From the IMG/VR virus record IMGVR_UViG_3300045003_000028, positions 1-35,239 of that record: a stretch of DNA of 35,239 nucleotides. One strand, written 5' to 3'. A program made the translations under genes and the position numbers. This stretch comes from a virus. Below are positions 5,671-31,743 of this stretch, in pieces (the stretch's first letter is position 1; the number at the start of each line of letters is the position of its first letter). Under the pieces are notes generated by a model. The model did no database searches. It saw only the letters and a program-made list of their open reading frames with translations, and had not been told where the DNA came from.

Positions 5671-6585
5671 TTAGAAGATGGAGATCAGGCCGGTGACGGC
5701 TGTGGGGGTGCCCAGATCGAGCGTGCCGGGCGAGGATCCGCCATTGCTGATCGCGATCTGGAACGGATTGGCGGCGAGGTTCGCCGTGTGGCTGGCGGAG
5801 TCAGTCACACTCTCGGCCAGGCCAGAGTAAGTTCCAACCGTCGTCGGCGTGCCGGAGATCGTGCCTGTCGAGGTCGAGAAATTTAGCCCTGGCGGCAGCG
5901 TGCCAGTGAGCGCGTAGGTGTAGGGCGCCGTTCCGCCCGTCGTCGTGGGTGTGAAGGTGCTGTAGGCGGTCCCGACCGTGCCGGTGCTGGCAGGCGTTCC
6001 GGTGAGCGTGAAGTTAGAGGCGATCGTCAGGTTGAAATTGGCGATCGAGGCTGAGCCGCCGACGTTATCGACAGCGGTTACGGACAAGCCGTTGAAGGTC
6101 CCGCTGACCGAGGGCGAGCCGCTGACGACGCCGGTCGAGGACGCGATCGAGATACCCGAGGGCCACGCGCCTGACAGCGAATAGGTGTATGGTGTCGCTC
6201 CGCCTGACGGCCCAGTGTACGAGCAGCCAGAATATGCCGCCCCCTGCGTTCCCGACGTCGCACATGTGCCGCTGAAGCTCATCGCGGCATAGATCGTTTC
6301 GCCGGCCGTCGTGACCTGAAGTTTGATGGTGTGGCCGACGTCTCCTGAAACGACCGTGTAGGACGTGCACGAGGTCGAGACCTGGACGGCGTTGCTGAAC
6401 CAGGCGCACGTGCCGCCCGCTGGAATGCCGTTCGCGTTCAGGGTCTTGCCGACCCATTGAACGCCCGTGATCGATATGCCCGTGCCGTTGTGGACGTAAT
6501 CCTTGATCTGGGCGAGCGCGGGGAAACCTGAGAACAGAAGGCACGCGGCAACAGCCGCCCAGGCGCACAAGCGCTTGAGGATCAT
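5671..6585 (-). CDS. Secreted-type protein with two putative Ig (He_PIG-like) domains
   Basis: This is a 304-residue protein. The ATG at 6585 is chosen over an in-frame ATG at 6618 because GAGG lies upstream and the N-terminus then begins directly with a signal peptide (Lys-Arg, hydrophobic core, cleavage ALA-Q near residue 25). Two tandem domains follow at ~115-195 and ~200-280. Each has the pattern TPYTYSLSG...P.GI...STG..SG.P...GT, the signature of putative-Ig (He_PIG, cadherin-like) domains in bacterial and phage surface proteins. The first ~90 mature residues form a separate beta domain with Cys pairs. It is the first gene of the four-gene surface cluster and is separated from the ejection-protein gene by a plus-strand gene. 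The role is probably adhesion or carbohydrate recognition. Confidence 0.74.
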   Translation of the reverse strand: MILKRLCAWAAVAACLLFSGFPALAQIKDYVHNGTGISITGVQWVGKTLNANGIPAGGTCAWFSNAVQVSTSCTSYTVVSGDVGHTIKLQVTTAGETIYAAMSFSGTCATSGTQGAAYSGCSYTGPSGGATPYTYSLSGAWPSGISIASSTGVVSGSPSVSGTFNGLSVTAVDNVGGSASIANFNLTIASNFTLTGTPASTGTVGTAYSTFTPTTTGGTAPYTYALTGTLPPGLNFSTSTGTISGTPTTVGTYSGLAESVTDSASHTANLAANPFQIAISNGGSSPGTLDLGTPTAVTGLISIF

Positions 6586-6667: not shown

Positions 6668-6814
6668 ATGTTTCTCTGGAAGCTTCTGAAGCACCCGCAG
6701 TGGGACTGGCTCACCTTTTGGGATCGGGTGGCCTACCTGATCTCGCTGGCGTGCTTCCTGGGTCTGATGTCGCTAGGCGCGCAGGCTCTGTTTCACCACG
6801 GCGTCGGTCACTGA
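6668..6814 (+). CDS. 48-residue membrane protein on the opposite strand
   Basis: The frame starts at an ATG with GAGAAGG five to six bases upstream and ends at TGA 6812-6814. It encodes an N-terminal Trp/Lys-rich amphipathic stretch (about residues 1-20, four Trp) followed by one transmembrane helix (VAYLISLACFLGLMSLGAQAL) and a short His-rich tail. The gene is inverted relative to all neighbours, and its 3' end overlaps the stop of the ejection-protein gene (6808) by seven bases. It could be a small lysis, exclusion or membrane-remodelling protein. No family is recognised. Support comes from the good SD, the topology and the otherwise unexplained 222-base space. Confidence 0.5.
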   Translation: MFLWKLLKHPQWDWLTFWDRVAYLISLACFLGLMSLGAQALFHHGVGH

Positions 6815-9096
6815 GACTGGCCGCCATAGGCTGCAGCTCCTCCCAGGAGACCTGTGGTCGGGGCGATTGCCGGTGCGACAAGAGACGGAACTGGGGGAGC
6901 CTTTGGGGCGCCCGTCAGCATGGACTGGAACGTCTCCGGGTCCGACATCATCATGTTGGCGAAGGAGAGGCGCGCTTCGGGGCTCAGCGGGGCGCCGAAG
7001 CCAGTGACGAGCCCACGGGCGGGGGCGACAGCCAGCTTGCCGAGCGCGCCGAAAGCGCCTTCGAGGTTCGGGCTCTTGGCGAACTCCGCCCAGAAGGGGG
7101 AACCCTTATCCATCTCTTCGTTGGCGGATTTTGCCTCGCCGGTCGTGGAGTTGGTGTTGGGCGAGTACCTCGCCGCTTCCTTGGCGAGGTCCGCGCGCAT
7201 CTGCACTCGGTTCAGGAAGTCGTTCGCCGCATCCGGAGATCCCAGGACCGTCTCCAGCTTCTGCTGATAGAAGGGCGTCATCAGATCCCGGGGGCGCAAG
7301 CTTCCCTTACCGAGCTGGGTCGCCAAGTCGTCAGCATGTCCCATGATGAACGCTTGCCGATCAGCAGGGGAATAGGTGTTCCAGCGCTGATTGAAGATCC
7401 GCGGGTGGACGTCATTGCCCATGAAGTCCTGACCCTCTTCGAACGCCTGCTGCAGGCGAATAGGGTCGCCGCCGGCATCGACCGCCGTCTTGTAATCAGG
7501 ACCCCACGCCGTGTCGGGGTTGGTCAGTTCGTCGAGCAGGCTCTTAGAGGTTCCGACCATTGCTCGCCCCTCGTCGTCAAGTTCCAGCCGCTTGGTGAGA
7601 GGGTTGCGATAGCGCTTGGTCAACACGTCGTTTAGGCCGCGCTTGGCGTAATCCCAGGTCTGCATGGTCGGATTTTCGACCTGCACAGGCACATCTTCGC
7701 TGACGGGAGGAAGCTGGATCTCGCGCGGCCTCATCATCGTTCCGCCGCCAGGCACCGGAACCTGATCCATGACCGTCGCCGTTCCGCCAGGGAACTTCTG
7801 CGTATCCCAGCGGAAGCCGAGTTCGGTCGGATCGCGTCCCTCTTCGGCCGCGATCCGCATGGCCTTCGACATGGCCGCCTGCATCGACGGTCGGCGCAGA
7901 AGATCACGAAGGGTCGGGCTGTCTACGCCGCCGATCGAATAGGCCTGCGTGTAGAGGGGGGCCGCCTTCTGCCGCATCGCGTCGGCTTGCGCCTGCACGT
8001 CGTTATAGGCCGTATCTGGATCAACGCCAGCGACCCTCTGGAAGTCAGAAACGACCCCCCTTGCCGTGCTCCTAAGCTGTTCGCGCGCAACTGGGTCTAG
8101 GATGTCGGGCGCGTCGCCCGGTCCCTTCGCGAGACCGGTCGCTAAGTTCACGCCGCGCTTACCGAGCAGGTTTGCCGCCTTGACCGGAAGACCGGCCTGA
8201 ACGCGCGGATCGGCCGCGATGCTGTCGGGCGTGACGCCTCGGCTCGCCGCGACCTTCTGCAGGAACTTCAGCGCCTGCGCGTCAGAGTCCGGCGTCGGGG
8301 TTCTTTCCGGCTGGGGGATGCCAACGGCCTCCTTGAGTTCGCCTGATGCCTGCTTGAGACCTCGCGCCAGCCTGGGGACGATCTTCGGCGCGTTGGTGGC
8401 GACGGCGGTTGCCGCGGGGAGCCCCAGGCCCAGCCCCGCACCGGATAGACCGCCCCAGAGCGCGCCCTGTCCACGGTCGGCATAATTCTCGCCCGCGCCG
8501 CTCGCAATGCCCGTAAGGCCGCCGACGAAACCGGAACGCGCCGTCGCGCCTGCGAGAGACTTCGCGCCGCCGATGAACTTCCCCGCGCCGAGCCCCTCCA
8601 ATGTCGGAAGGGCACCTGCGATGTTCAGCGCCGTGTTCGCGATCGTGTGCTTCGCGGCCCATGCGTCCTGCGCGTCGTGTTCCTGCTGGATGATCGCGTC
8701 GCGGTAGGCGTCGCCGGAATAGGCTCCGGGTTTGCCGCCCGTGGCGCGCGCCGCAGCGTTCCGGAGGCTCACGACCGCGCCAACCGGGATCGCCGTCGCT
8801 TCTGGCTCCCAGTTCATCATGCCGCCGTTGAACATGGACCGCTGCCACCCCGGCAGCTTGGCCGCGTTCGCCTTCGCGTCCGCCTGCGCTGCGGCCCACT
8901 GCTGCGGGCCGTATTTCAGGATCATCGAGTCGTTGTAGCGGGTCTTCGGGTCGACGATCGGCGTGTCCGGCATCCGCCAGGCCGGATTCGTCGGCTCGAT
9001 GTAGTGCCCAAAGCGGTTCGACGGCTGCCACTGAGGTGCTGGATTGACCGGTGGCGCGGGCTGCGGCAGGGCATATTGCGCGAAACGGTTCGCCAT
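6808..9096 (-). CDS. Large internal virion (DNA-ejection) protein
   Basis: This is a 762-residue protein. Residues 1-60 are Pro/Asn-rich. Residues ~150-240 contain Gly/Ala-rich hydrophobic stretches (for example GLSGAGLGLGLPAATAVA) that could insert into or cross a membrane. The remainder is helical and charged. Size, position after the lysozyme-bearing protein, and a Gly/Ala hydrophobic patch within an otherwise soluble protein fit the internal or ejection proteins of podoviruses, which leave the particle with the DNA and form a channel across the envelope. The start ATG directly follows the TAA of the upstream gene. No enzymatic motif is seen. It lacks a signal peptide, unlike the next genes. 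Confidence 0.68.
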   Translation of the reverse strand: MANRFAQYALPQPAPPVNPAPQWQPSNRFGHYIEPTNPAWRMPDTPIVDPKTRYNDSMILKYGPQQWAAAQADAKANAAKLPGWQRSMFNGGMMNWEPEATAIPVGAVVSLRNAAARATGGKPGAYSGDAYRDAIIQQEHDAQDAWAAKHTIANTALNIAGALPTLEGLGAGKFIGGAKSLAGATARSGFVGGLTGIASGAGENYADRGQGALWGGLSGAGLGLGLPAATAVATNAPKIVPRLARGLKQASGELKEAVGIPQPERTPTPDSDAQALKFLQKVAASRGVTPDSIAADPRVQAGLPVKAANLLGKRGVNLATGLAKGPGDAPDILDPVAREQLRSTARGVVSDFQRVAGVDPDTAYNDVQAQADAMRQKAAPLYTQAYSIGGVDSPTLRDLLRRPSMQAAMSKAMRIAAEEGRDPTELGFRWDTQKFPGGTATVMDQVPVPGGGTMMRPREIQLPPVSEDVPVQVENPTMQTWDYAKRGLNDVLTKRYRNPLTKRLELDDEGRAMVGTSKSLLDELTNPDTAWGPDYKTAVDAGGDPIRLQQAFEEGQDFMGNDVHPRIFNQRWNTYSPADRQAFIMGHADDLATQLGKGSLRPRDLMTPFYQQKLETVLGSPDAANDFLNRVQMRADLAKEAARYSPNTNSTTGEAKSANEEMDKGSPFWAEFAKSPNLEGAFGALGKLAVAPARGLVTGFGAPLSPEARLSFANMMMSDPETFQSMLTGAPKAPPVPSLVAPAIAPTTGLLGGAAAYGGQSQ

Positions 9097-11406
9097 TTAC
9101 GCGCCCCCCAATGCTCGCTTGGCCGAGCCTACACCGAAGACCTGATCGAACTCGGCTTTGGCCTGCGGGGACGGATCGCGCTTCAGATCTGCTATCGCTG
9201 CGGCTGGCGGCGTGCGCTGGGCCTGATTGGGCTGCGGCAACTTCGGGGGCGCCTTCGGCAATGCAGGCGCACGTTTCGGAGGTTGCGGCTGGCCCTGGCC
9301 CGCTTGCGCGTTATGCGCCTGCGCCGTCTTGCTCCAAGCTGCGTCCGCCCCACCATTGGCAGACAATGACCCGTATTTCTGGAGCCAGCCCTCATAAAAC
9401 GCGAGTTGCTTTTCGGTTTGGTTCGCTTCGTCGGTGAGGCGCTGGGCGATGCCGACGTTGGCGGGGCCGCGATTTCTGATGTTCGGAAACGCCTGCTTCC
9501 AATCCCCGGCCTCGTAGCCCTTGATCGCACCAGATCCCTTCTGGCGCATGTCCGCCCACGTGGCGTTCGAGATCGCGTCGAGTTCATCAAGTTGATTTCC
9601 AGGATTTGGAAACCAACCGGCGACGTCCCGGACGGGATTGAACTCGCTATGTGTCAGGGGGATATGGATCCCCTCATATCCAGGGCCGGTCGCCAAGTCG
9701 CCCATCTTGTTGACGAACTCGTTGGCGCGGGTCGCGAGGAACCGCCGGTCGTTCGCCGTGTCGCGGAGCTTTGAGATAGCATCCTGATCGGCTTTTTGGA
9801 TATCCGGCGACACGCCCTGCGCGATGAACGGCTTGTTGGGTGGTGCGGGCTGAGCTGTAGCGCCACCAGGCCCCGTGACGAGCTGCTGAGCGGCGCTGAG
9901 GCGTTGGCCGTAGTGGCTGGCGCCTTGCGGATTCTGCGGGGTGTATCCCGCCGGGCGCTCATAGCCGACAGCCGCCGCTGTCGCGTCGCCTACCGTGCCG
10001 GCGTTTCGGAGCGCGTCGCCGGCCGACTTCTCCCCGTTCTGCAGTTCGTAATGGGAATATTCGAGCTGGGTGTTGGGGTCGGACGGGTCGAGCTTGTTGG
10101 CCTTGGCGAAGGCGAACAGGCCTTGCAGTCGCGGTCCGGTCCATTGCGCCAGGCCGAACGAGCCGTCATCGGCAGTCCTGCCGGCATCCAGACCGCTCTC
10201 GCCGATCAGGTTGCCTACAAGGCCGGCCGCCTGCTCAGGCTTGTAGCCCTTGGCGATATAGAATTGCATTGCCTGCTGCGGGGTGATCGAGCGAGCACCC
10301 CCGGAGGCTTGCGACGCGCCGTTCGGGTTTGCGACAGGCGCTGGGGTGGCCTGCGGCTGCGGCGCGCCGCCACCCTGCAGCGCGGCGAGTTGCGCCTTGG
10401 ACACCGTGAGCGGTCCTTGCGGCGTCTGGATGACTACGGTGTCGTAAGGAGCCTTCGCGGCTTCCTGCGCCCCGGCGACGGCGCCAGCGGCTTCGGCTGC
10501 TGCGCCCGCATAACCCGGGATTGGGATGACACCGCCCTTGCCGTCAGGCATTGTGCCGGCAGCATACTGCGGCACAAATCCCGGCGCGCCTTTGGCGTGG
10601 GGGTTTACGAGTTGACCATTCACATACTCGGAGCGGTCCAGGTAGCCGACAACTTGCCCCGTCTTTTTATTGACCATTCCACCACTGGCGCGGTCGATCT
10701 CGATATCGGGAGCCACGGCCTGCATCACAGCCTGGGCGTTCTTGTCCCCGTTTAAGGACATGAGGCCAAGCGTATTTAGGTCGATCGGGAATCCCGAATC
10801 GGCCGGCGCCTGCGAGGCGGCTGCGCCGGGAACGGCTTGCGACGGCTGAGCGCCACGCGCCGAAGCTGTCTGCACTCCGCCAGGGGGGCTAGACCCTGCA
10901 GGCGCCTGTTGCTGCGGCGAGAGACCTTGGAGCACGCGACCGCGGAGCGCTGCGTTGATCTGCGCTTGCTGGAGATCCGCCGCGATCTTCGCCGGCAGCA
11001 TCCGAGTCTGGATATTCCGCTCGGTCAGATCCGCCTGCGCCGTATTGAAGTCCTGCCCCGTCCCCCACGCATGGAGCAACGTCTGCAGCCGGCTCGGCTT
11101 GTTCTGAGCGATCAATTGGGCGATCGGATCTTGCTGGCCCGGCGGCTGCTGGTCCGCCTGGGGCTGAGCCGTCGCCTGCGGTTGCGCCGGGGCGTCCGCC
11201 GGGCGCGCGCTGTCTCCGAACAGGCCCCCGAGCACAGGTTTCGCCGGAACACGGCCCAGCAAGCCGTGGGGCTGATCTGGGGCTTCCTGCGAAGGTGCGG
11301 GAGCTGCGTTCCACTGGCCGTTGCCGGTCAGGGCGTTCCACAGCGCGCCCTGGTCCTGTGGGCCACCCCAAAGACCGCCGAGGTTGGCATAGGTGGCGTC
11401 CACCAT
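9097..11406 (-). CDS. Internal virion protein with tail-lysozyme domain
   Basis: This is a 769-residue protein. Residues ~1-200 are Pro/Gln/Ala-rich and low in complexity. Residues ~375-505 match the phage tail lysozyme family (Phage_lysozyme2-like): a helix with AMQFYIAKGYKPEQAAGLVG, then NLIGESGLD with the likely catalytic Glu403, then GSFGLAQWTGPRLQGL. This domain cuts peptidoglycan to let the ejection apparatus through the cell wall. The C-terminal ~250 residues are helical and end in a Pro/Gln-rich tail. The gene is packed end to end with 12624-11407 and 9096-6808 (no gaps). It is the only clear peptidoglycan hydrolase in the window. Confidence 0.82.
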   Translation of the reverse strand: MVDATYANLGGLWGGPQDQGALWNALTGNGQWNAAPAPSQEAPDQPHGLLGRVPAKPVLGGLFGDSARPADAPAQPQATAQPQADQQPPGQQDPIAQLIAQNKPSRLQTLLHAWGTGQDFNTAQADLTERNIQTRMLPAKIAADLQQAQINAALRGRVLQGLSPQQQAPAGSSPPGGVQTASARGAQPSQAVPGAAASQAPADSGFPIDLNTLGLMSLNGDKNAQAVMQAVAPDIEIDRASGGMVNKKTGQVVGYLDRSEYVNGQLVNPHAKGAPGFVPQYAAGTMPDGKGGVIPIPGYAGAAAEAAGAVAGAQEAAKAPYDTVVIQTPQGPLTVSKAQLAALQGGGAPQPQATPAPVANPNGASQASGGARSITPQQAMQFYIAKGYKPEQAAGLVGNLIGESGLDAGRTADDGSFGLAQWTGPRLQGLFAFAKANKLDPSDPNTQLEYSHYELQNGEKSAGDALRNAGTVGDATAAAVGYERPAGYTPQNPQGASHYGQRLSAAQQLVTGPGGATAQPAPPNKPFIAQGVSPDIQKADQDAISKLRDTANDRRFLATRANEFVNKMGDLATGPGYEGIHIPLTHSEFNPVRDVAGWFPNPGNQLDELDAISNATWADMRQKGSGAIKGYEAGDWKQAFPNIRNRGPANVGIAQRLTDEANQTEKQLAFYEGWLQKYGSLSANGGADAAWSKTAQAHNAQAGQGQPQPPKRAPALPKAPPKLPQPNQAQRTPPAAAIADLKRDPSPQAKAEFDQVFGVGSAKRALGGA

Positions 11407-12624
11407 TTATGCAGCCTCCGCGAGCTTGGCGTAATCGACCATGAGCAGGCCGAGAATGGGGTGCTCGACGACGGCTTCCGGGTCGGTTTTCTGGACTTCC
11501 TGCGCCATGACACCGATGTGGCGGGTGGGGTCGTTGCGGTAGGAGAACTCCACCCATCTGCGGCCCTTGGCGTCCCGGCCGATGGTGACGACGTTTTCCT
11601 TGGACCGCTCGTCGGACATGCTGGCGAGATAGGACATGAACGGATTGGCCGCGTTCGATACGCCGCCCAGGACGCCGCCGCCGCCGGAGGGGACGCCAAA
11701 CAAACTTCCTGCGATACCCACGCCCTGACCGATACTCGACAGAAGCGACGGGCTGTACGTGGTATTGCTCTGGCCCTGCGAATTGGTGAGCATCGGCGTC
11801 TCGCCGAGCAGACCGAGCTGAGCCGCGAGTTGCTGTTGCGGGTTGATCTGGCCGCGCAGCGCTTCCTGATAGGCCGCCTGGTCCGCCGCCGTTTGCGTTG
11901 CCTGCTGTTCGGCTCCCAGCGAGTTCAGAGAATTGGCGCTGTTCAGGCCGAGCTGCTGTTGCAGGCCCGAGAGGTTCCCGAGCAGCCCGGCCGCTCCCAG
12001 GTTCAGATTGGCGCCCTGCAGCCCCGCCTGCTGGTTCGCGAGCTGGCCTTGCAGATTGTTCGAGATGTCCGACTGCGCCGCCTGCTGGGCGTTGGCGTAA
12101 TTGGCCTGATTGAGGCCCGCGAGCGTCTGGGCGGCGGTGTTGGCGAACAGGTTGTTGGTCTGCGCGTCGGCCACGCCCTGACGAGCGCCACCGAACGCGC
12201 CAGCGCTGGTGAACTGTCCGGCCTCGTTGTTGATCTGCTGTTGGTTCTGCAGGTTCAACGCGTTCATGGTCGCGTTGGTCACGTCCTGGGTGTAGGGGTT
12301 CAGGTACGCAGACAGGTTGGTGCTCGCCAGCGTCTGCGGCGTGACGCTCGACGGCGCATAGCTGGCGCCGGAGGTTGCGCCGGACGCGGCTTGTCCAAGC
12401 AACCCCTGCCCCGCCGTGACGCTGTTCTGGGCCTGCGTCTGCGCCTGCTGCTGCAGCGGCGTCAGGCCCGCGATCAGTTGTCCCGTGTATGGGGTATACG
12501 AGCCGGCATAGTTTCCACCCAGCGTGCTCTGAATGCCGGAGGCCTGATTGGTGTACTGCCCCTGCGACCACGGATTTAGGGTGTTGGTCTGGCTGGTCTT
12601 GGTGCTGCTGCTGGAATCGCCCAT
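11407..12624 (-). CDS. Gln/Asn/Ala-rich virion protein with C-terminal S74 chaperone domain
   Basis: This is a 405-residue protein. Residues 1-~310 are extremely rich in Gln, Asn, Ala, Ser and Leu, with a helical repeat-like pattern (AQTLAGLNQANYANAQQAAQ is typical). A Gly-rich hinge (GVPSGGGGVLGG) follows. Residues ~335-400 are an intramolecular chaperone (peptidase S74) domain: MSDERSKENV contains the Ser-Asp/Lys autocleavage signature, followed by the WVEFSYR, HIGVMAQEVQK and VDYAKL strands. S74 domains normally help fibres or spikes trimerise and then cut themselves off. Here the domain sits on a protein placed with the ejection proteins, so it may shape a long trimeric needle or internal component. 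It is coupled directly to the lysozyme-bearing gene. Confidence 0.76.
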   Translation of the reverse strand: MGDSSSSTKTSQTNTLNPWSQGQYTNQASGIQSTLGGNYAGSYTPYTGQLIAGLTPLQQQAQTQAQNSVTAGQGLLGQAASGATSGASYAPSSVTPQTLASTNLSAYLNPYTQDVTNATMNALNLQNQQQINNEAGQFTSAGAFGGARQGVADAQTNNLFANTAAQTLAGLNQANYANAQQAAQSDISNNLQGQLANQQAGLQGANLNLGAAGLLGNLSGLQQQLGLNSANSLNSLGAEQQATQTAADQAAYQEALRGQINPQQQLAAQLGLLGETPMLTNSQGQSNTTYSPSLLSSIGQGVGIAGSLFGVPSGGGGVLGGVSNAANPFMSYLASMSDERSKENVVTIGRDAKGRRWVEFSYRNDPTRHIGVMAQEVQKTDPEAVVEHPILGLLMVDYAKLAEAA

Positions 12625-12626
12625 GC

Positions 12627-12974
12627 CTATAGATCCTTCACCAACAGCGTCTCAGGTCTGTATCCAATCGGAGCCAGGACACGTTCCCAGCCCTTGCGGC
12701 CCTTGATCGTCACTCTCGATAGTCCGTGGTCGCGCGCCCAGTCTGAGACTGCGCGCTCCATCGCCCACATCTCCTTGCGTTCGCCTCCGAACAGCCAGAG
12801 ATGGAGCCCTCCGGTGATCTCTGAGACGCCAGCGCTCGTATGCCCCGGCCAGAAGTGCGCCCGGCCCTCAAGAACGCGCTGCTTCACTTCGTCCAGGCTG
12901 AACCCCTGCGTTCCGCCCCGGTCGAGCGCCGCCTGAAGCCATGGCACGCACCGCGCCCATTCCTCGTCGATCAC
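12627..12974 (-). CDS. GNAT-fold-like phage protein (T7 gp13-like role possible)
   Basis: This is a 115-residue soluble protein with the layout of small phage acetyltransferase-like proteins. An opening helix contains CVPWLQAAL, a beta sheet includes LHLWLFGG, a helix follows (MERAVSDWARDHGL), and then VTIKGRKGWERVLAPIGY, reminiscent of the C-terminal GR.GW...L...GY seen in GNAT-like virion assembly proteins. It lies between the S74 protein and two very small genes. In T7-like phages a protein of this fold (gp13) is needed for particle assembly. The fold assignment is inference. Acetyl-CoA binding residues are not evident. It overlaps the upstream gene by four bases. Confidence 0.58.
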   Translation of the reverse strand: MIDEEWARCVPWLQAALDRGGTQGFSLDEVKQRVLEGRAHFWPGHTSAGVSEITGGLHLWLFGGERKEMWAMERAVSDWARDHGLSRVTIKGRKGWERVLAPIGYRPETLLVKDL

Positions 12975-13180
12975 GGATTCAGAAGGCCCAACACCAGCAT
13001 CAGCGCCGTCTGCTGGGCTGATCGCTCCGGAAAGAAATTCGCGGCGCCAGCCACAACCTGCGCCGTAGCCGTGCTGGGGGCTTTCGGATCGCCCCAGGTG
13101 AAGGTTGCGATATCCCCGGCCTGGGTCATGGTCACGCTCGCGTTGGCGAGCGCGGTCTGGTCGATGGTCCAGGGCGTCAT
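12971..13180 (-). CDS. Small virion-region protein, unknown
   Basis: This is a 69-residue protein, beta-rich at the start and with a hydrophobic helix at the end (QTALMLVLGLLNP). It overlaps the next gene by four bases (ATGA) and the previous one by four, so the run nozzle, 69, 69 and 115 residues is tightly coupled. No family is recognised. The context suggests a minor tail or internal component. Confidence 0.6.
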   Translation of the reverse strand: MTPWTIDQTALANASVTMTQAGDIATFTWGDPKAPSTATAQVVAGAANFFPERSAQQTALMLVLGLLNP

Positions 13181-13386
13181 AGGGCGGTCAACGTCAAGGC
13201 GCCGCTGGCGACGGTCAGGGCATAGCGATGGCCGGTCACGGTGTCGGTGAGGATCACAGACTTTTTCGCTCCGACCTCGATGTTGCCGGTCTTTTTGTGG
13301 CTCTGGCCGTCCGCCTGTTCGATCGCCGCCCGCATCTGGGCCTGATCGTTCAGGTCGTACTGTTGGGGTGGCGTCCCGAGCTTCAT
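13177..13386 (-). CDS. Small virion-region protein, beta-rich, unknown
   Basis: This is a 69-residue protein. A short acidic N-terminal helix (QAQMRAAIEQADG) precedes strands ending in SVILTDTVTGHRYALTVASG, which look like a small beta-barrel or plug. It overlaps the stop of the nozzle gene by four bases and the next gene by four. Such short genes commonly follow the tail-tube gene in podoviruses. No specific function can be assigned. Confidence 0.62.
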   Translation of the reverse strand: MKLGTPPQQYDLNDQAQMRAAIEQADGQSHKKTGNIEVGAKKSVILTDTVTGHRYALTVASGALTLTAL

Positions 13387-14870
13387 CGCCTGCCCCTCTG
13401 AGCGACCTTCAGGCGGAAATCGCCCGCTCTCGCCGCGTCAGCCCCGATGAACTCCAGCTTGAGTTCGGTCTGCCGTGCCATGAAGCGCAGCGGCGTCACC
13501 GGGCCGGACGGGTTCGAGGGGCCGACCGAAACCGGTCCGGTCGTGGTCTGCGGGCCGTTCGGATAGAACCGCGAGAGGAACGTCATCTGCACGTCCCCTT
13601 GGATCAGTTCGTCGGGCACGACCCCCAGCACATGCATCACGTTCTCGCCGTCCGCGATCTCGATCGGTCCGGACGTGACATAGGGATAAGGGACCGGCGA
13701 CCCCGTATAGCTAAATCCCGTCTCGTGCTCCCAGACGTTTCCTGACGTGTCCACCTTGATAGGTGTCGTAAATACGCCCTGCCCACACGCAGCAGTTCTT
13801 GCAAGCTGGCCCATGGTCCAGTTATTATACCGATATGACCACGTGACGTAACTATCGTTTTCGATCGATGCTGCTGACGGGAAGTGCCACGTCAGCTCAC
13901 CATTGCCGCTATCGTGATACCCGACGACCTTCGACGCCTGCTGATAATTCAGGTTGCCGAAGACCTTGTCCTGCATATCGGAGGGTAGCGCCTGGACGGT
14001 CAGGCCGTTGTAGATCCAGAAGCATTGCCAGCCCATCCAGGCGCACATGGACTCGAAGGTCACGGGAGACTGCTTCGACACCGCGCCGCAGTTTTGCTCC
14101 ACCCGCTGAAAGCTCTGGACGACCGGGAGGCCGACGTACTGCGACAGCCAGACGTCGGTGTCGGTAAAGTGCAGGACCCCCGCCCTGACGTTGCGCCCGC
14201 ATTGGAGGACGCCCGAGGTGTTCAGCGCCACAGACCCGGCCTGATTGGTCGTCGTCGCCGTCCAGGAGGTGATGTTCTGCTGGTCGCACCAGTTCACCGT
14301 CTTGTCCTGGTAGGCATAGACGAAACCGTTGGTGTCGGCGCAGCAGCCCGTCAGGTTGGTCGGGGCGTTGGTGACCACCGCAGCCGGCGTGCCGGTGTTC
14401 AGCGTCCACTGGTAGAGGTGACCATCCTCCGCCGTGCAGCCGATCAGGTACTGGCCGAAGGTGTCGAGGTCCCATTGCGTCGCCGGCAGGATCGCAGAGG
14501 TGTCCGGGAGAGGAACGCCATAGGCGCCCACGCCGTAATTGCCTTCACCGTAACCGACGCCGCTGCTGGCGTCCTGCCTCCCAGCGAGGTAGCCGCTCGG
14601 GGTGATATCGCTCAGCGTCGCCGCTCCGATGGCGTAGAGCTTGGTGTGCGTTCCGATCGCGAGCCATCGGCCGCCGTTGTTGTCACGCCAGGGCAGCGCC
14701 GCTCGCGCCGCGCCGGAGACCGTAGCGCTGATATGCGGCGTCCAGCCGCCAATCGGCTGTAAGGTCGGCCGGAAGCTCACCAGAGAGCCGTCTCGCCAGA
14801 AGCCACGCTCCTGCCGCTCGGTCCCGTTCGCTCGGATGCCGGGCGGGAAGTTCAGCTCAAGGAAGGGCAT
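13383..14870 (-). CDS. Tail nozzle / phage stabilisation protein (P22 gp10 / SU10 nozzle type)
   Basis: This is a 495-residue protein. It begins with the characteristic N-terminus of this family, a proline-containing FPPGI followed by FWRDGSLVSFRP and PIGGW. It then has repeated beta-propeller-like blades, including WRDNNGGRWLAIGTHTKLY, YLIGCTAEDGHLYQW, NGFVYAYQDKTVNWCDQQN and AWMGWQCFWIYNGLTVQAL. These propeller proteins form the hexameric nozzle below the adaptor in short-tailed phages. The ATG at 14870 starts just past an AT-rich 69-base gap from which the methyltransferase runs the other way, so a new promoter for this gene is likely in 14871-14939. Confidence 0.8.
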   Translation of the reverse strand: MPFLELNFPPGIRANGTERQERGFWRDGSLVSFRPTLQPIGGWTPHISATVSGAARAALPWRDNNGGRWLAIGTHTKLYAIGAATLSDITPSGYLAGRQDASSGVGYGEGNYGVGAYGVPLPDTSAILPATQWDLDTFGQYLIGCTAEDGHLYQWTLNTGTPAAVVTNAPTNLTGCCADTNGFVYAYQDKTVNWCDQQNITSWTATTTNQAGSVALNTSGVLQCGRNVRAGVLHFTDTDVWLSQYVGLPVVQSFQRVEQNCGAVSKQSPVTFESMCAWMGWQCFWIYNGLTVQALPSDMQDKVFGNLNYQQASKVVGYHDSGNGELTWHFPSAASIENDSYVTWSYRYNNWTMGQLARTAACGQGVFTTPIKVDTSGNVWEHETGFSYTGSPVPYPYVTSGPIEIADGENVMHVLGVVPDELIQGDVQMTFLSRFYPNGPQTTTGPVSVGPSNPSGPVTPLRFMARQTELKLEFIGADAARAGDFRLKVAQRGRR

Positions 14871-14939: not shown

Positions 14940-15752
14940 GTGCTCGAACACGCGCAACTTGCCGACGCTGACCGGAGACGCTGGTTTCCGCTGTCACATG
15001 AACAGGCCTTCGCAGATGGCATTCACACCGCGACGTGTCCGGTCTGCGCCGAACACGCGACGAAGGCGTTCACGAAAAGCGGTCACGACATTGCGAAATG
15101 CCGAACCTGCGGTTTCATGTTCGTGCATCCGTACCCGGATCACGCCACTCTATCGGCCTACTACAACGCCAATTACCGCAAGGCGTCTGCCGACTTCTAC
15201 CCGAAGTCGGCGAGCCGTCGTCAGCGGTGTTTTCAGCGCGCCCTGCTCCTGTGGCCGTATCTACGCGGAAGAACCGTGCTCGAACTCGGGTGCGGTGGCG
15301 GGTTCATGTCCTGGGCCATGTCGTTCTTTGCGAAGTCGACGATGGGTGTTGACATTTCCGAGGGATCGATCGCCTATGCCAAGGCTCACTTCCAAAAGTC
15401 GGTGTTCTGGTGCGCTGATCTTCACGCCGTCGCCACGGAGATGCGCGAGACATTCGATCTCGTGTTCTCGTCCGAGCTGCTGGAACACTTGCCCGGTGTT
15501 GACGAATTTATGGCGGCGATCGTCGCCACGACGCGGCCCGGTTCGCTCGTCTATGTCTCAGCGCCAGACGCCTCACACCGGCACGTCCCCAAGAATATCC
15601 AGACTTGGGGCGACATTTGCCCGCCGGAACACCTGCAGTGGTTCGGCAAGCACAATCTGGCCAGGCTATTCGCCATGCACGGCTTTGAGCCTTACCGCTA
15701 TCTCTACGCGCCGAAGGCGGCGCACAACGTCCTGTTCAAGCGCCGTCAGTAG
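14940..15752 (+). CDS. SAM-dependent methyltransferase with N-terminal zinc site (moron)
   Basis: This is a 270-residue protein with a GTG start (AGGGGAG about 12 bases upstream). Residues 33-57 hold two CxxC pairs (Cys33/36 and Cys54/57), a zinc ribbon. Residues 113-121 (VLELGCGGG) are the SAM-binding glycine loop. Asp138 in MGVDIS is the acidic ribose-binding residue, and FSSELLEHLPG is the post-motif of Methyltransf_23-type enzymes. Zinc-ribbon plus this domain is typical of enzymes that methylate sugars or other small substrates in polysaccharide clusters. It is the only plus-strand gene in the structural block. It overlaps the tail-fibre stop by seven bases, as expected of a moron. Host surface modification or protection is plausible but unproven. 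Confidence 0.82.
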   Translation: MLEHAQLADADRRRWFPLSHEQAFADGIHTATCPVCAEHATKAFTKSGHDIAKCRTCGFMFVHPYPDHATLSAYYNANYRKASADFYPKSASRRQRCFQRALLLWPYLRGRTVLELGCGGGFMSWAMSFFAKSTMGVDISEGSIAYAKAHFQKSVFWCADLHAVATEMRETFDLVFSSELLEHLPGVDEFMAAIVATTRPGSLVYVSAPDASHRHVPKNIQTWGDICPPEHLQWFGKHNLARLFAMHGFEPYRYLYAPKAAHNVLFKRRQ

Positions 15753-16921
15753 CAGTCGGCGGTGACGTAGAAGCCCTCAATCGCGTTGCGGCTTCCGCTT
15801 TGGAATCCGGCCGCCTGCACCGTCACGCTGTTGCCCCCCGGCGCGCTGGTGATCTGAAGGGCATAATAAGGGCTCGCCACACCGCCTTGGTTATCGGTGA
15901 CAGCCGAGTACGAATAGCAGCCATGTGAGGGGCTAAACGGAAAGGTGATCGACTGCGGGCCGCCGCTCCAGAAATTGCCGCCGCTGTCGTAGTGATACCA
16001 CTGATGGACGTAGCCGCCCCCCAGGTTGCAATATCCTGACGTGCTGCTCCCTGAGCAGGACGGCAACGCCAGTGTCGCCGAGCCCTGAGCCGTGATCCTG
16101 CCCTGCGCGTTCGTCGTGAAGGTGCAGGTGGTCGTGGTCGATCCGCACGAGCCCGGCGCCCCATTCACCGCGTCGAGATCGGCGTTGGCCACCGATGCGG
16201 CGGGAAGCGTCAGCGTTCCGCTATTTAGCGTCAGACCGCCCGAAATGTTAGCTCCACCGGTACTGACATTCAGGGTTCCGATGTTAGCGGTGCCCGATAC
16301 GTTCAGGCTTCCTCCGATTCCCACTGTGCCCGCACTGGATATGGTCATGGCCTGGGAATTTGCCGCCCCGAATGCTATCCCTTGTTGAAATCCCGGCGGG
16401 TTGAATTCGATGTAAGCTTGGTTTGTAAAGTCAATCAACTGCTGAATTCGCGTAGACGATGTGGTCCAGTCTGATCCGTTGGCATTGCGAGCGCCATAAA
16501 TTCGAAGTATATTGCTGTTTGTACTCGTATAATTAAATCTTCCGATTTCGACCTGATTGCCCGATGTCGTCCCCAGCGCGCCGCCATTATGTGTGGTAAG
16601 CCCCGAAACGGTCAGGCCTCCATTCAGGGTCGCGCCGCCCGTGACGCCAAGCGTCGAACTGAAGGATGCCATTGTGCCCGTAATGCCGCCTGTGAACGCG
16701 CATCCCGCCTTCGGACAGGCCGCGTTGGCTACACCAGAGACAGAGAACACGGTCGAGTCGATGCCGTCCAGGTCTCCGTTCAGATTGTTGCCCCAGGTGT
16801 TTGCGCTGGCGCCGATCGTGGGCTTCAGCCAGCCGTAATTCGTCGTCGGGACTTGGGCGAACGCGGGAGCGCTCGCCGACGCCAGGAGCGCGGCACTGAG
16901 ACCGACCAGGAGCTTACGCAT
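15746..16921 (-). CDS. Tail fibre protein with an N-terminal signal peptide
   Basis: This is a 391-residue protein starting at the ATG at 16921, chosen over longer in-frame starts because it gives a textbook signal peptide (MRKLL, hydrophobic core, cleavage AFA-Q at about 22-23). The mature N-terminus (TTNYGWLKPTIG, then TWGNNLNGDLDGID) is the standard opening of phage tail fibres. Shaft-like Gly/Ser/Thr repeats follow (GGATLNGGLTVSGL). The end (ITFPFSPSHGCYSYSA...ALQIT) resembles the gp53/gp37-like receptor-binding tip. The middle (~16340-16560) is visibly poorer in GC than its neighbours, suggesting module exchange. A fibre with an export signal is unusual. Confidence 0.8.
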   Translation of the reverse strand: MRKLLVGLSAALLASASAPAFAQVPTTNYGWLKPTIGASANTWGNNLNGDLDGIDSTVFSVSGVANAACPKAGCAFTGGITGTMASFSSTLGVTGGATLNGGLTVSGLTTHNGGALGTTSGNQVEIGRFNYTSTNSNILRIYGARNANGSDWTTSSTRIQQLIDFTNQAYIEFNPPGFQQGIAFGAANSQAMTISSAGTVGIGGSLNVSGTANIGTLNVSTGGANISGGLTLNSGTLTLPAASVANADLDAVNGAPGSCGSTTTTCTFTTNAQGRITAQGSATLALPSCSGSSTSGYCNLGGGYVHQWYHYDSGGNFWSGGPQSITFPFSPSHGCYSYSAVTDNQGGVASPYYALQITSAPGGNSVTVQAAGFQSGSRNAIEGFYVTADCY

Positions 16922-16923
16922 GA

Positions 16924-17241
16924 TCAGCCCTCGCACGCTTCGATGTTGTGGCTCGTGGTGGCCGCGACGACGGACACGGCGTTGATCGGCGGCGGATTGG
17001 GCTCCCATGCCTTGCCGATCCCCAGCTCCCAGGACATGCCGCCGAACGGCGCGGGCGTGCCTCCGCCGACCACGGCAGTCCCGCCCTTGTCGTTGATCCA
17101 GATGCTTTCGGTGGCCGTCGAGGGGTTGGAGATCCGGAGATATCGGCGCCCGCTGTTGAAGGGCGCGATGGTCTGCGCCGTCCCGCCCGCCGTGATCGAG
17201 ATGGACAGGTCGGTATTGTTCGTGCCGCGATTGGCCATCAC
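16924..17241 (-). CDS. Small tail-region protein, beta-rich
   Basis: This is a 105-residue protein without a signal peptide. It has a strand pattern (LSISITAGGTAQTIAPF, YLRISNPSTATESIWI) and a Gly/Pro loop (GGGTPAPFGGMSWELG) that resemble small phage capsid-decoration or fibre-attachment proteins in which tailspike and fibre genes are interleaved with beta-sandwich adaptors. It sits between tailspike and fibre, six bases after the tailspike stop and two bases before the fibre start. Met1 or Met2 are both possible starts. The role is inferred. Confidence 0.62.
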   Translation of the reverse strand: MMANRGTNNTDLSISITAGGTAQTIAPFNSGRRYLRISNPSTATESIWINDKGGTAVVGGGTPAPFGGMSWELGIGKAWEPNPPPINAVSVVAATTSHNIEACEG

Positions 17242-17247
17242 ATTGTC

Positions 17248-18684
17248 CTATTGATAGACCCAGCCGCCGGAGCCGGTGCAGAAGACCTCGTAGACGCCAG
17301 AGCCGCCGCCAACCGGTATGCCGCGCCAAGTGGGAGTTCCGCTCGCGTCGGTGACGTAAGCCGTCCTTCCTTGTGAGGAAGCGCCGCAGGTCGGCAGAGT
17401 CGCAACCGTATAGTTACGCAGACCGAGGGGCGAGTATCCTGGCACGTAGAGCGGGGAAGGCGAATGCGCTCCGGTCAAGTTGAACACGTTGGAATAGGCG
17501 GTGAGGGTCGAGATGCCCCCGCCGATGACAATCGTGTAATCGCTCGTTCCAGTTTCAACAACCGCACTCACTGCTCCAGATGACGCCTCAAATGTCGTGT
17601 TCGTGAAGTTGGTTCCCTGCGAACTGGCGACAGTTGCCCCACTTTGTCCAGAGTTGACCGCCTCGATGTAGTCTCCGTTGAACGTCGTGTTGGCGGCGTT
17701 CTGGATGGAAACTACCGTTCCTTCCGCGTTGTCAAAGGTGTCTCCAATCGACTGAAACCATCCAGTCCCATTCAGAAGAAGCGCGTTAAATTTTAGATTG
17801 TATATGTGATTGCCGGATAGCAACACACCAACAGCCCCAGGATCAGCTATTACGCCATAGTTAGTAGCAAATCCACCTTGCATAATCACGTGTGTTACTT
17901 GAGAGTCTGCCGCCAGCGCCCCGAGATGGATGCCTGCGTACCCCGTACCGACTTGCGAGCCACCCACGTATATCTGTACGTTTTCAAGACAAACGTCGTG
18001 GGTAGGGGTCGATGCTGTGCCGTTGACATAGATGAATGAGAAACCGTTCGGGAGGTTGTTCTCGTATAGGTTCGTGAGCGTCAGGGTGCCCTGCCCCGCC
18101 GTCTGGATGATGTCGTCGGCGCTGTTCGTCCCGTCGAAGCTCAGGTCGCGCACGGTCTGTGCATTCCAGGCCATCTCCCCGGTATTCCACCCAAGAACTG
18201 GAGAAGCGCACCCCGAGGATGCGACGAGGATAGACGCTTTGCCTGACCCGTACAGCACAAGGTTGGCTGTGCTTGGCATGGAGATGCCGCACACCTTATA
18301 AGTGCCCGGCGGCACGTAGACTGCGAGCTTTCCGCTCGTCAGCGCCGAGTTGAAGGCTGTGGTGCTGTTGGCCGCTCCAGTAGGGTCCGCGCCGTAGTCG
18401 ATTACGTTCGCGACCTCGGCGGCCCGCGCCGAGAGGCTGCGCGCCGTCGTGCTTCCGGCCGCCGTCACCAGCCCGTCCATCCCCCCGCTGAACGTTTGCG
18501 CTCCGGTCCAGGTGTTCGCCTGCCCCGTTTGCGGGACAATGCCGTAGAGGTACGAGAAATCCGCGTCTAGTTGGCTGGCCGGGACTTTGCCGGGCTGCGT
18601 GCCGAACGTATACGGCGGCTGCGCGAAGACGGGGCCAACCGACAACCCAAGCGCGACGACGATGGCGATGGCGCGCTTAATCAC
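17248..18684 (-). CDS. Tailspike with pectate-lyase-like beta-helix and signal peptide
   Basis: This is a 478-residue protein. The start taken is a GTG at 18684 that overlaps the preceding gene by eight bases. A longer in-frame ATG start (18783) would add a basic, low-quality extension. The N-terminus from that GTG is a signal peptide with cleavage VFA-Q. Residues ~25-50 (FGTQPGKVPASQLDADFSYLYG) are the usual head-binding opening of phage spikes. Residues ~100-145 (VIDYGADPTGAANSTTAFNSAL, then VYVPPGTY) are the hallmark of the pectate lyase superfamily domain. A right-handed beta-helix follows to ~430. The stretch around 17750-17900 is AT-richer than its surroundings. It probably binds and degrades a surface polysaccharide. 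Confidence 0.8.
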   Translation of the reverse strand: MIKRAIAIVVALGLSVGPVFAQPPYTFGTQPGKVPASQLDADFSYLYGIVPQTGQANTWTGAQTFSGGMDGLVTAAGSTTARSLSARAAEVANVIDYGADPTGAANSTTAFNSALTSGKLAVYVPPGTYKVCGISMPSTANLVLYGSGKASILVASSGCASPVLGWNTGEMAWNAQTVRDLSFDGTNSADDIIQTAGQGTLTLTNLYENNLPNGFSFIYVNGTASTPTHDVCLENVQIYVGGSQVGTGYAGIHLGALAADSQVTHVIMQGGFATNYGVIADPGAVGVLLSGNHIYNLKFNALLLNGTGWFQSIGDTFDNAEGTVVSIQNAANTTFNGDYIEAVNSGQSGATVASSQGTNFTNTTFEASSGAVSAVVETGTSDYTIVIGGGISTLTAYSNVFNLTGAHSPSPLYVPGYSPLGLRNYTVATLPTCGASSQGRTAYVTDASGTPTWRGIPVGGGSGVYEVFCTGSGGWVYQ

Positions 18685-18880
18685 TGACGGGAGTCCATGG
18701 GTTTGAGGGCGCCGACGTCGCCGTGAACTGCACCGCTTGTCCTTCGTTCGTAACGAAATCGACTTCACCGCCGGTCGCCTCAAAGGTCAGGGTCGACGAG
18801 TCGTCCCACCATTCCGGATTGTTAGATACCGGCACCCAAGGCGAGAGCCCCGGAGAAACTGGCGTCCACGGGGTGCTCAT
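18677..18880 (-). CDS. Small protein with three PW-x-PVS repeats
   Basis: This is a 67-residue protein in which PWTPVS, PWVPVS and again PWTPVS occur at the start, near residue 14 and at the C-terminus. The middle is a short beta segment (TLTFEATGGEVDFVTNEGQAVQF). It overlaps the adaptor gene by four bases (ATGA) and the tailspike gene by eight, so it is translated with them. It may be a linker or minor tail component. No family is recognised. Confidence 0.6.
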   Translation of the reverse strand: MSTPWTPVSPGLSPWVPVSNNPEWWDDSSTLTFEATGGEVDFVTNEGQAVQFTATSAPSNPWTPVSD

Positions 18881-19521
18881 GGCGCGAACCTATGAACCTG
18901 GCGCAGCACGTCTCCGGTGCTCTCTTTCAGGTTCGCTTGGTTGATCTCTTCGATGACGCCCTGGTATATCTGCAGCCAGCCCGGCAAGCGATCGTCATCT
19001 GACACGAATGGTATCGCCTGGATCGCCGCTCCATACAGGTATGCATCCGGATATAGGCTCAGGAGCCAGTTGGTCGAGTTGGACACCAGTGACGGGATCT
19101 GCGCCCAGTATTGCAGATCGGCGGTGTATCCTTGATCCGGGACCGATGAGAACCGGAACGAGGTACCCACGATGGAATAGCTATCCGGTTGCTCCGCCAC
19201 GTTGAAGCGGCGGGATGCAAGCTGGTTGGCCTGAGTCGGCGTGACGAACTTCAGCGTTCGCGTCGGGGTCGTCGAGGTGATCGAGAACGCCTGCACGCCC
19301 AGAAAATCCGGCGGTGTCGGCACATATTCGGCCGATATCGTCGCCGTGGCGTGCGTCAGCATCTGCCGATGGCGGATTGTCCGGTTGAACTGCGCTTCGG
19401 CGAGTTGGATCCAGAACGGCGCCTGTCCCGCCAGATCGGGCCGGTTCAGGAGGTCGATCACCGCTGCTTGCAGGTCGGTGTAGTTGGCGACCGTGCCGCC
19501 CGAGCCAACGGTGTAGGTCAT
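18877..19521 (-). CDS. Head-tail adaptor protein (SU10 adaptor-like)
   Basis: This is a 214-residue protein. Helical N-terminal features (DLQAAVIDLLNRPDL, IQLAEAQFNRTIR), the central sheet (YSIVGTSFRFSSVPDQGYTADLQYWAQIP) and the C-terminal helix LYPDAYLYGAAIQA match the adaptor proteins that sit between portal and nozzle in SU10-like and related short-tailed phages. It starts immediately after the stop of the 139-residue gene, within the head-to-tail gene order. The family call is from pattern memory and was not searched. Confidence 0.68.
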   Translation of the reverse strand: MTYTVGSGGTVANYTDLQAAVIDLLNRPDLAGQAPFWIQLAEAQFNRTIRHRQMLTHATATISAEYVPTPPDFLGVQAFSITSTTPTRTLKFVTPTQANQLASRRFNVAEQPDSYSIVGTSFRFSSVPDQGYTADLQYWAQIPSLVSNSTNWLLSLYPDAYLYGAAIQAIPFVSDDDRLPGWLQIYQGVIEEINQANLKESTGDVLRQVHRFAP

Positions 19522-20221: not shown

Positions 20222-21178
20222 TTATTGGATGTCGGCCACGACCGCAGACGCGCGCTCGTTTCTGGCGACCAACGTGGCTTCGTGGGTCATCATGAACTTT
20301 CTTGAATCACCCGTCTTTGCGAGTTCCTCGACCTTGATGCCGTCGAGGACCGCGATGGCCCACATGTTCGGGTCGGCCAGCAGGCAGTCCCGCGTCAGGC
20401 CGTACGGGTGCGGGATCAGGGCGATAGCCCCGAAGTCAGACACGTAGACCTCGGCGGCGCCGTAGATGGTCGCCTGGTTCTCGCCGTCGACATTGGCGCG
20501 GATGTCTGCGATGCCGGTGAAGGCCGAGAACTCCTGCTTGGAGGTCGGACCCATATAGGCTTGGCGGGGCTGGCCGCCGTTGCCGAACGCGGTCGCCAGG
20601 ACGCCCTTCACCAGCGACTCGGTGAAGTTGCGCTGAGTGCCGTTGGTGGCCGCCGACACGACGCCGCTGGCGAAGCCGCCGGACGAACCGCCGGTCCCGC
20701 GGGAGACGTTGGAAGTCAGCCATGCCAAGGCGCCAGCCGCGTGGCGGGGGGTGGCGCCCGATTCCGCGTTGGAGGCATAGTTGCCGATCACGCGGGCTTC
20801 CAGGTCGCGACGCATCGCGAGGCCCTTCAGTACGCTCTGGCGGTTCAGTTCCGACTGACGACCGGCCTTCTTCACGACCTCTTGGGTACGGGCTACGCCG
20901 TAGGTCTTGCGGAAGATTTGGCAGTAGTTGCCGACCCGAACGGGCGTGTTCGGGGTATCCAACGTGCCGATGTCATCGCCTTCGAGCTGGGCGTTGTTGG
21001 CGTTGACAGCGTCAAGCGCCTCGGTCTCGTGTTCGTGGTAGATCCCGGTGGCTTGGGTCTTACCAATGTTGCTCACGAAAGGCGTAGCTTCTGCGGCCAC
21101 GCGATAGATCACGTCTTCTAGGTCTTCGCGGGCGCCGACCTGATTGGTCGACGTAACGGTATTGGTGGGAGCGGTCAT
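20222..21178 (-). CDS. Major capsid protein, SU10 type (DUF5309)
   Basis: This is a 318-residue protein. Features of the SU10/DUF5309 capsid family include REDLEDVIYRVAAEATPFVSNIGKT near the N-terminus, YCQIFRKTYGVARTQEVVKKAG, MRRDLEARVIGNY and late strands such as AEVYVSDFGAIALIPH. It assembles the icosahedral shell around the scaffold (next gene upstream, 21185-22195) and lies in the usual scaffold-capsid order. A strong GC-rich hairpin follows. The family is high-confidence by pattern. No protease cleavage site is obvious. Confidence 0.85.
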   Translation of the reverse strand: MTAPTNTVTSTNQVGAREDLEDVIYRVAAEATPFVSNIGKTQATGIYHEHETEALDAVNANNAQLEGDDIGTLDTPNTPVRVGNYCQIFRKTYGVARTQEVVKKAGRQSELNRQSVLKGLAMRRDLEARVIGNYASNAESGATPRHAAGALAWLTSNVSRGTGGSSGGFASGVVSAATNGTQRNFTESLVKGVLATAFGNGGQPRQAYMGPTSKQEFSAFTGIADIRANVDGENQATIYGAAEVYVSDFGAIALIPHPYGLTRDCLLADPNMWAIAVLDGIKVEELAKTGDSRKFMMTHEATLVARNERASAVVADIQ

Positions 21179-25569: not shown

Positions 25570-25776
25570 TCAGCGTCCTTTCTTGAGAACAGCCCGCGCC
25601 GCGCCTTTGATTTTGGCGGCTTCAGGCGCGGAGATGTTGCCGGCGCGCTCGGAACGGGTTGCGCCGCCGATAGCGAGGCGAGCGTGGGTTTTGTTTTCAA
25701 CGGGAAAGGATTTACCCGGTCCCGCGAAGTCCTTCTTGGGAAGGGCTTTTCGTGCTTTGCTTGTTAGTTTCGCCAT
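25570..25776 (-). CDS. Small basic phage protein, unknown
   Basis: This is a 68-residue Lys/Ala-rich protein. The ATG at 25776 is chosen because the protein from there (MAKLTSKARKALPKKDFAGP) has the appearance of a conserved short phage protein. A nearby ATG at 25782 is also possible. It overlaps the 3' end of the endonuclease VII-like gene by about 65 bases. It may bind nucleic acid or act in head assembly, but neither is shown. Confidence 0.6.
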   Translation of the reverse strand: MAKLTSKARKALPKKDFAGPGKSFPVENKTHARLAIGGATRSERAGNISAPEAAKIKGAARAVLKKGR

Positions 25777-26305
25777 GGGCATTCTTGTCCAAATAATCCG
25801 CAAGTTTGCGGAGCAGCGCTGTGTCGTCCTTGACCATGCCTAGCACTTTGTTGCATCGATCACAGATCCACCCGCGCGGCTTGCCGGTAGCGTGGCAGTG
25901 ATCGAAGCACATCCCATTCCTAGGCCTCTTCGCCCTAGCTTGAGGAGTGCATCCGCATATCTCGCACAACTCGGGGCGTGGACGGCCGAGAAGCGCTTCG
26001 CGTTTTTCTAAGTATCTAGACTTAGCTCTTACCTCGATGAGCTGCTGGCGCTCGGGGTAGCGCTTGCGCACCTGTTCGGCTCGGTGCGCATCGCAAATAC
26101 CGAGACCCTTTACCGGCCTTTCGCAGCCATCGATGCTACACAGTTCACCGGCCCATGTCGGGTGGCGACGATGCGGAGACGCCGGGTCTCCATATCTGTA
26201 CCATTTGTGGTAATGAGCCCGGCACAGACCGCGGCTCCGCACAACTAAGGGCTTGCCGCAGCCATCAACGCTGCATATTCCAGGAGAAGCCATCCGAACA
26301 TCCAT
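25712..26305 (-). CDS. Recombination endonuclease VII-like HNH protein with zinc knuckles
   Basis: This is a 197-residue protein. Residues ~11-31 and ~56-74 each hold Cys-x4-Cys and Cys-x2-His pairs, two small zinc-finger-like repeats. Residues 114-152 are the endonuclease VII core: Cys114 and Cys117, the FDHCHATGKPRGWICDRCN box with Asp135-His136, Cys148/Cys151 and Asn152, and then a helical tail. T4 endonuclease VII resolves branched DNA before packaging. Here the gene lies between terminase and portal, the usual place for free-standing HNH genes. Its end overlaps the next gene, so it may be an inserted homing-type gene. Met5 (26293) is an alternative start. Confidence 0.8.
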   Translation of the reverse strand: MDVRMASPGICSVDGCGKPLVVRSRGLCRAHYHKWYRYGDPASPHRRHPTWAGELCSIDGCERPVKGLGICDAHRAEQVRKRYPERQQLIEVRAKSRYLEKREALLGRPRPELCEICGCTPQARAKRPRNGMCFDHCHATGKPRGWICDRCNKVLGMVKDDTALLRKLADYLDKNAHGETNKQSTKSPSQEGLRGTG

Positions 26306-31350: not shown

Positions 31351-31743
31351 TAACTGTCCCGTTCTGTTTGATTGGCAGTGACAGAAGCGGGCTCACTGGG
31401 GGTGAAAAGTGCCGCTGTTGTCCGCGTGTGTTGGCCCGATGCTATGGCAGTCGGCACACGACGGAGGGGCCACCCGCGGCGCTCCCCTCGGTATTCTTGT
31501 TGGCCGCCTACGGCCATATCGGAATGGGGAAGGCTGGGCGCGGCTGGATGGCTGGAAAACATGGGCCATAGCCTTGGCCGCGCTGCCTGCTAGGCGCAAG
31601 AGCGCTAGCTAAGCCTTTTGTACGATTTCAGGGGTGCTGCGGTCAAGCCGTTTCGTCGCGGCGGTTCACCTTTCCTTCGGGAACCTTCTGGTATATACAT
31701 TGTTTATCCGGGACCCGCACACCCGGTAGTAAGGACGGAAAAC
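31351..31743. other. Stretch without a confident gene before mazEF
   Basis: Several small frames exist. The best is 31409-31612 (+), with GGGGGTG before a GTG and a Trp/Ala-rich end of 67 residues, but it shows no family and fits chance coding in GC-rich DNA. A weak hairpin near 31591-31606 followed by CCTTTT could end it. The last ~55 bases hold the mazE leader with possible operator sequences, listed separately. Confidence 0.3.
31691..31726 (+). promoter_or_regulatory. mazEF leader with palindromes
   Basis: GTATATAC (31691-31698) is a perfect eight-base palindrome and lies in an AT-rich patch suited to a -10 region. CCGGG (31708-31712) pairs with CCCGG (31722-31726). MazE-type antitoxins usually bind such palindromes together with MazF to repress their own operon. 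A modest SD (AAGGACGG) is before the ATG at 31744. The operator role is inference. Confidence 0.45.

Follow-up and report, generated by a model that had tools for sequence, protein, structure and literature searches.

Assembly of tailed phages is taught as taking place entirely in the cytoplasm, and tail proteins normally both fold and are put together in that compartment. The signals of SAR endolysins stay uncleaved. SAR endolysins and spanins resemble the proteins described here in being phage products that use host export (PMC3556154, PMC3765740), but they are lysis proteins and not tail parts. Phage lambda encodes a signal-bearing product, Lom, among its tail genes; unlike the fibre described here, Lom is a host outer-membrane protein rather than a virion-anchored tail fibre (PMC12309495). 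Closer in design are the fibres of the Burkholderia phages Bcep781, Bcep43 and Bcep1 (Naesvirus), together with the tail protein gp48 of Burkholderia phage BgManors32, in which a signal stands directly before a phage-type N-terminus (QFAPGQILTAAQLN). The GenBank records of Bcep781, Bcep43 and Bcep1 carry the label 'possible tail fiber; possible signal peptide domain' and state no mechanism. The feature has already been noticed, that is, in the annotation of contractile-tailed phages from another bacterial class, and a literature search found no study developing or analysing signal peptides on tail fibres.

The window analysed here is the whole of a 35,239-base IMG/VR metagenomic contig from an uncultured phage. 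It encodes a podovirus of the P22/LUZ24 type, with terminase, portal, scaffold, capsid, SU10-type adaptor, nozzle and ejection proteins all on the minus strand. The Bcep781-type phages differ from it in their contractile tails, betaproteobacterial hosts and anchor motif, and they have one signal-bearing fibre per phage in the stretches examined, compared with six signal-bearing proteins in the window. The combination of a signal with the QFAPGQ-LTAAQLN anchor that marks the Bcep781 type is absent from the window, so the two are alike in design and belong to different families. LUZ24-like podoviruses share the capsid family and overall gene order of the window, but no gene of LUZ24 itself passes the signal test used below, and none does in Rhizobium RHph_N3_2 or in two Manatee Spring relatives. 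Sinorhizobium phage phiM5 resembles the window in its anchor motif and in the order of the genes for capsid, tail tubular protein A and fibre; its capsid is 39% identical. The record of its fibre homologue, gp19, lists the protein as found in virions (particle proteome). Unlike the window fibre, gp19 has no signal peptide, and its start lies 5 codons ahead of the matched stretch (TTNY...), or 7 ahead of NY.

Predicted signal peptides in the window

The tail block starts with the head-tail adaptor (18877-19521; SU10_adaptor, PF24175), followed by the tailspike (17248-18684; 478 aa, GTG start), a 105 aa protein (16924-17241; phrog_22789), the tail fibre (15746-16921; 391 aa, ATG start) and the tail nozzle protein (13383-14870; phrog_3287), all on the minus strand. 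The adaptor, the 105 aa protein and the nozzle are without signal peptides. A short protein with a start similar to that of the 105 aa protein also lies upstream of the signal-bearing fibre in two related loci, L001 and L303. A gene for a SAM-dependent methyltransferase (phrog_22502; 14940-15752, plus strand) is inserted on the opposite strand between the fibre and the nozzle, and its target might be a surface glycan or a receptor. Two further features were recognised by eye, a cysteine-rich HNH/endonuclease VII-like gene between the terminase and portal genes (25712-26305, minus strand) and a pair of overlapping genes resembling a MazE/AbrB-type antitoxin and a MazF/ChpB-type toxin (31618-32324, plus strand).

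Signal peptides were called with a home-made rule that considers n-region charge, a hydrophobic core, an A-x-A cleavage box and the lack of charge between core and cut. The rule recovered 9/10 known E. coli signal peptides. Six of the 30 minus-strand genes in the window passed, namely the fibre, the spike and the genes at 1000-2163, 2181-4850, 4853-5653 and 5671-6585, compared with none of the 24 other genes checked (Fisher P 1.7e-6). The chance pass rate was 0.2% for composition-shuffled N-termini, and 0/186 other ORFs of the window passed. The first-pass annotation had proposed that the fibre and spike carry clear signal peptides, that all six candidate receptor-binding or surface proteins share this feature and that head, nozzle and ejection proteins lack it; the rule bears out all three statements, and both the fibre and spike ORFs open at the coordinates above. 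The signal peptides of the fibre and spike, predicted to be of the Sec/SPase I type, are confirmed as an observation.

The four further signal-bearing proteins, also on the minus strand, are diverse. The protein at 1000-2163 is a beta-helix protein (PF13229) with the predicted signal peptide MSLSRKLAAGCVAFALTAPAFA before a mature A. Its neighbour at 2181-4850, an 889 aa protein, has MWRAFRLAAAALAACCFSSVVA before A and a mature part that contains 18 cysteines; searches of Pfam, PHROGs, PDB and phages found no match to it. A 266 aa protein (4853-5653; MIRSLRGLLVASAALCALAPTAYA before Q) and a 304 aa Ig-domain protein (He_PIG; 5671-6585; MILKRLCAWAAVAACLLFSGFPALA before Q) have 6 and 4 cysteines in their mature parts, respectively.

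Register of the signal and the virion anchor

The fibre signal is encoded by 22 codons (16856-16921, minus strand). Cleavage is predicted after MRKLLVGLSAALLASASAPAFA, leaving QVPTT-NYGWLKPTIGASANTWG (mature start QVPTTNYGW) and a mature part with 8 cysteines. A search with the fibre N-terminus recovered a family with the anchor motif NYxWxKPxxGAxAxxWGxxLN, and the window fibre has this motif at its mature N-terminus and its gene between adaptor and nozzle, as befits a member of that family. Among 44 distinct anchor-motif proteins the signal is absent in 41 and present in three, those of the window, L001 and L303. Proteins without a signal start exactly 7 residues before NY in 39/41 cases (e.g. 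MADTTTT-NY), which leaves 6 residues after Met removal, compared with 5 after predicted cleavage in all three signal-bearing fibres. The corresponding junctions are MRKLLTGLSAALLASASAPAWA before ATQTT-NY in L001 and MRRPDSILALLAAAAVSALASAACA before GTPTT-NY in L303, where the rule scores an alternative cut 3 residues earlier slightly better. On this comparison, the predicted fibre signal is an addition, in register, before a normal virion-anchoring N-terminus.

An internal start that skips the signal would have offered a simpler account, as the first-pass annotation had pointed out; none was found between the fibre signal and the motif, the next start codon being codon 58, past the anchor motif. 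A Shine-Dalgarno-like stretch, GAGGG, lies upstream of the fibre ATG, and both this stretch and the start are conserved between the window and L001. Across the 22 signal codons the same two fibres show 7 synonymous and 2 non-synonymous differences. Identity among the signal-bearing fibres is 51-62% in the anchor segment compared with 27-38% in the remainder, and this conservation of the anchor argues for continued binding to the particle. Parts of the L303 fibre give matches to proteins annotated as tail fibres in a number of unrelated phages.

The spike is a parallel beta-helix protein (PF12708) whose body matches phage tail spike and pre-neck appendage families (phrog_4775, E 1e-15; phrog_2234, E 3e-8). 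Its predicted cleavage lies between MIKRAIAIVVALGLSVGPVFA and QPPYTFGTQPGK, giving a mature start of QP-PYTFGTQPGKVPASQLDADF and a mature part with 5 cysteines. The mature N-termini of fibre and spike had both been described as phage-type. The anchor family amply demonstrates this for the fibre. For the spike the description depends on a single weak hit, 21 aa long at 52% and with E=3, to the very beginning of MAV-PYTFATATSSIPLSQLD, a protein of a Manatee Spring phage. The register appears to be like that of the fibre, on thinner evidence, with QP-PYTF in the window compared with (M)AV-PYTF in the Manatee Spring phage, which has no signal there. Searches for the spike in viral contigs, and for its anchor as a DNA pattern, found nothing. 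Possible start codons in the spike gene are a TTG inside the signal and then only codons 69 and 73, and a single-sequence structure model was unusable (mean pLDDT 31). The best named homologue of the spike is BgManors32 gp48 (36% over 67% of the query), which begins with MKKIVFTLTAAFALLFSFVPRVAVA followed by QFVPGQVLTAQQLN; this signal was called by eye, its rule score being low due to an Arg near the cut. The N-terminus of gp48 in turn finds the tail fibres of Bcep1 and BcepNY3 (MNMKKILSRVFACAIVLAAFSQFALG before QFAPGQILTAAQLN), and the Bcep781 fibre is alike.

Relatives and cysteine content

Relatives were found and ranked by identity to the major capsid protein (20222-21178, minus strand), with codon-based gene calling for GC-rich contigs. 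The two closest, L001 (79%) and L002 (69%, on the same contig as L303), both have a signal-bearing fibre, whereas those at 65-67% capsid identity (L006/L007, L015/L016 and the Caulobacterales MAG locus L225) have a fibre without a signal at the same place. Other signal-bearing genes, mostly cysteine-rich, lie between adaptor and nozzle in L225, L036, L040 and L045. One of these, at 12649-14199 in the prophage-like locus L225, encodes a tail-block protein with 12 cysteines and a weak resemblance to GDSL hydrolases (E 0.002, below the Pfam cut-off); a GDSL/SGNH hydrolase of phiM5 is recorded as detected in virions. The close relatives L004 (5271-8814), L005 (6227-8591) and L011 (2445-2897) have further small signal-bearing genes in the region of the scaffold gene, upstream of that for the capsid. 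Among 42 prophage loci in genomes, mostly Bradyrhizobium, there was no standout signal-bearing tail-block gene except in L225 and possibly L254. Among 385 sampled genomes from the class to which a Bradyrhizobium genome belongs there was a single match, in which the signal region was not covered, and the plasmids searched gave no matches.

Cysteine makes up 1.79% of the signal-bearing fibres compared with 0.40% of their homologues without signals, a four- to five-fold difference (Fisher P 5e-5), and 1.74% of the six signal-bearing proteins of the window compared with 0.45% of its other structural proteins (P 2e-7). The close cysteine pairs of the window fibre, C69/C74 and C259/C266, recur in L001. 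The nozzle, which has 9 cysteines yet no signal, is a counter-example to any argument from cysteine content. Both the enrichment and the recurring pairs are compatible with folding in an oxidising compartment and do not prove it. Even cysteine parity was considered as proof of disulfides and rejected, since the 13/14 seen alone did not stand up to comparison with controls: 15/18 signal-bearing proteins had an even count, and of the controls without a signal 95 had an even count and 45 an odd one (Fisher P 0.14). The three ejection-type proteins of the window (9097-11406, 6808-9096 and 11407-12624, minus strand) have no cysteines in 1936 residues.

Proposed export and attachment, and rival readings

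On balance, it is probable that the receptor-binding proteins of this phage are exported, cleaved, folded in the periplasm and joined to tails at or after lysis. The fibre and spike would be exported through Sec, and a cut by signal peptidase I would restore an N-terminus of nearly the length found in cytoplasmic homologues. Once across the inner membrane they would fold, probably forming disulfide bonds, and fibres and spikes would stay in the periplasm during the assembly of heads and tails in the cytoplasm. Their attachment to the tails would come with the opening of the inner membrane at lysis or shortly afterwards.

The steps of this route differ in strength. Several independent lines together argue strongly for export of the receptor-binding proteins: the register of the signal relative to homologues without one, the selection seen in the signal codons, the reappearance of the arrangement in relatives as well as in unrelated cultured phages, and the enrichment in cysteine. 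From the same features we infer that the signals of the fibre and spike are cleaved and that disulfide bonds form, and attachment to virions after export would follow with less certainty. The first-pass annotation had suggested assembly or addition beyond the inner membrane, or late attachment after lysis; its export component finds support here, and later addition is a reasonable extension of it. To our knowledge, export of fibres before they join particles is not a known step for tailed phages. Addition of fibres or spikes is often the last step of assembly and P22 spikes bind heads in vitro, making late attachment physically plausible.

The main rival, possible but in our judgement unlikely as a general account, is that the proteins are exported and are not, or not mainly, virion parts: they would be free, secreted proteins that bind receptors or act on polysaccharides and that, once set free at lysis, remove or cover receptors on debris and on nearby cells or digest the matrix. 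The cysteine-rich signal-bearing tail-block proteins of L225, L036, L040 and L045, one of them weakly GDSL-hydrolase-like, fit such a role, and the separate fibre with an anchor and no signal that is retained alongside them in L225, L040 and L045 suggests that at least part of the exported proteins may have no place in the virion. Furthermore, no virion anchor was recognised in the four other signal-bearing proteins of the window with PHROGs or Pfam, and free secretion may well apply to part of this set of six. It is disfavoured in the case of the fibre, given the conserved anchor segment of signal-bearing fibres and the fact that no second anchor fibre, lacking a signal, was seen near the nozzle in the window, L001 or L303; a phage of such a group also needs a receptor-binding protein on its particle.

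A dual fate, in which export is inefficient or timed, so that a never-exported cytoplasmic fraction enters virions and the exported fraction does something else, is improbable. Two roles would keep both anchor and signal under selection, but the fibre has no alternative start codon for a product without the signal, the signals are strong by composition and an uncleaved hydrophobic N-terminus beside the anchor is expected to hinder docking. It is more doubtful still that the N-terminus serves as an uncleaved tether holding fibres at the inner membrane for docking. The hydrophobic core that this demands is present, and export is itself a prediction; against it, a canonical A-x-A box, which a tether would not need, stands at the exact junction in 3/3 signal-bearing fibres, and the polarity would leave the fibre on the outward-facing side of that membrane. 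An assembly chimera, a wrong start codon or chance hydrophobicity might be suspected of a metagenomic contig with signals predicted by a home-made rule, but is barely credible given that independent contigs and cultured phages show the trait again, that shuffled sequences so rarely pass and that the Shine-Dalgarno-like stretch and start are conserved.

Export followed by late attachment remains the preferred reading for the fibre and spike. A broader proposition, which we regard as evenly balanced, is that some tailed phages split morphogenesis across the inner membrane, with heads and tails made in the cytoplasm and with fibres and spikes exported, cut by SPase, oxidised in the periplasm and added only at lysis, the trait having arisen repeatedly by fusion of a signal to an anchor. 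Such a division would yield disulfide-stabilised fibres and would prevent adhesive fibres from accumulating in the cytoplasm.

The signal peptides on these tail proteins are a genuine and surprising feature that has barely been noted before. If fibres are exported first, there would be an undescribed last step of assembly at or after lysis, and a route to disulfide-bonded receptor-binding proteins, for which the cultured Burkholderia phages provide a clear test system. If so, cytoplasmic recombinant expression of such fibres and annotation that is blind to signals would both mislead.
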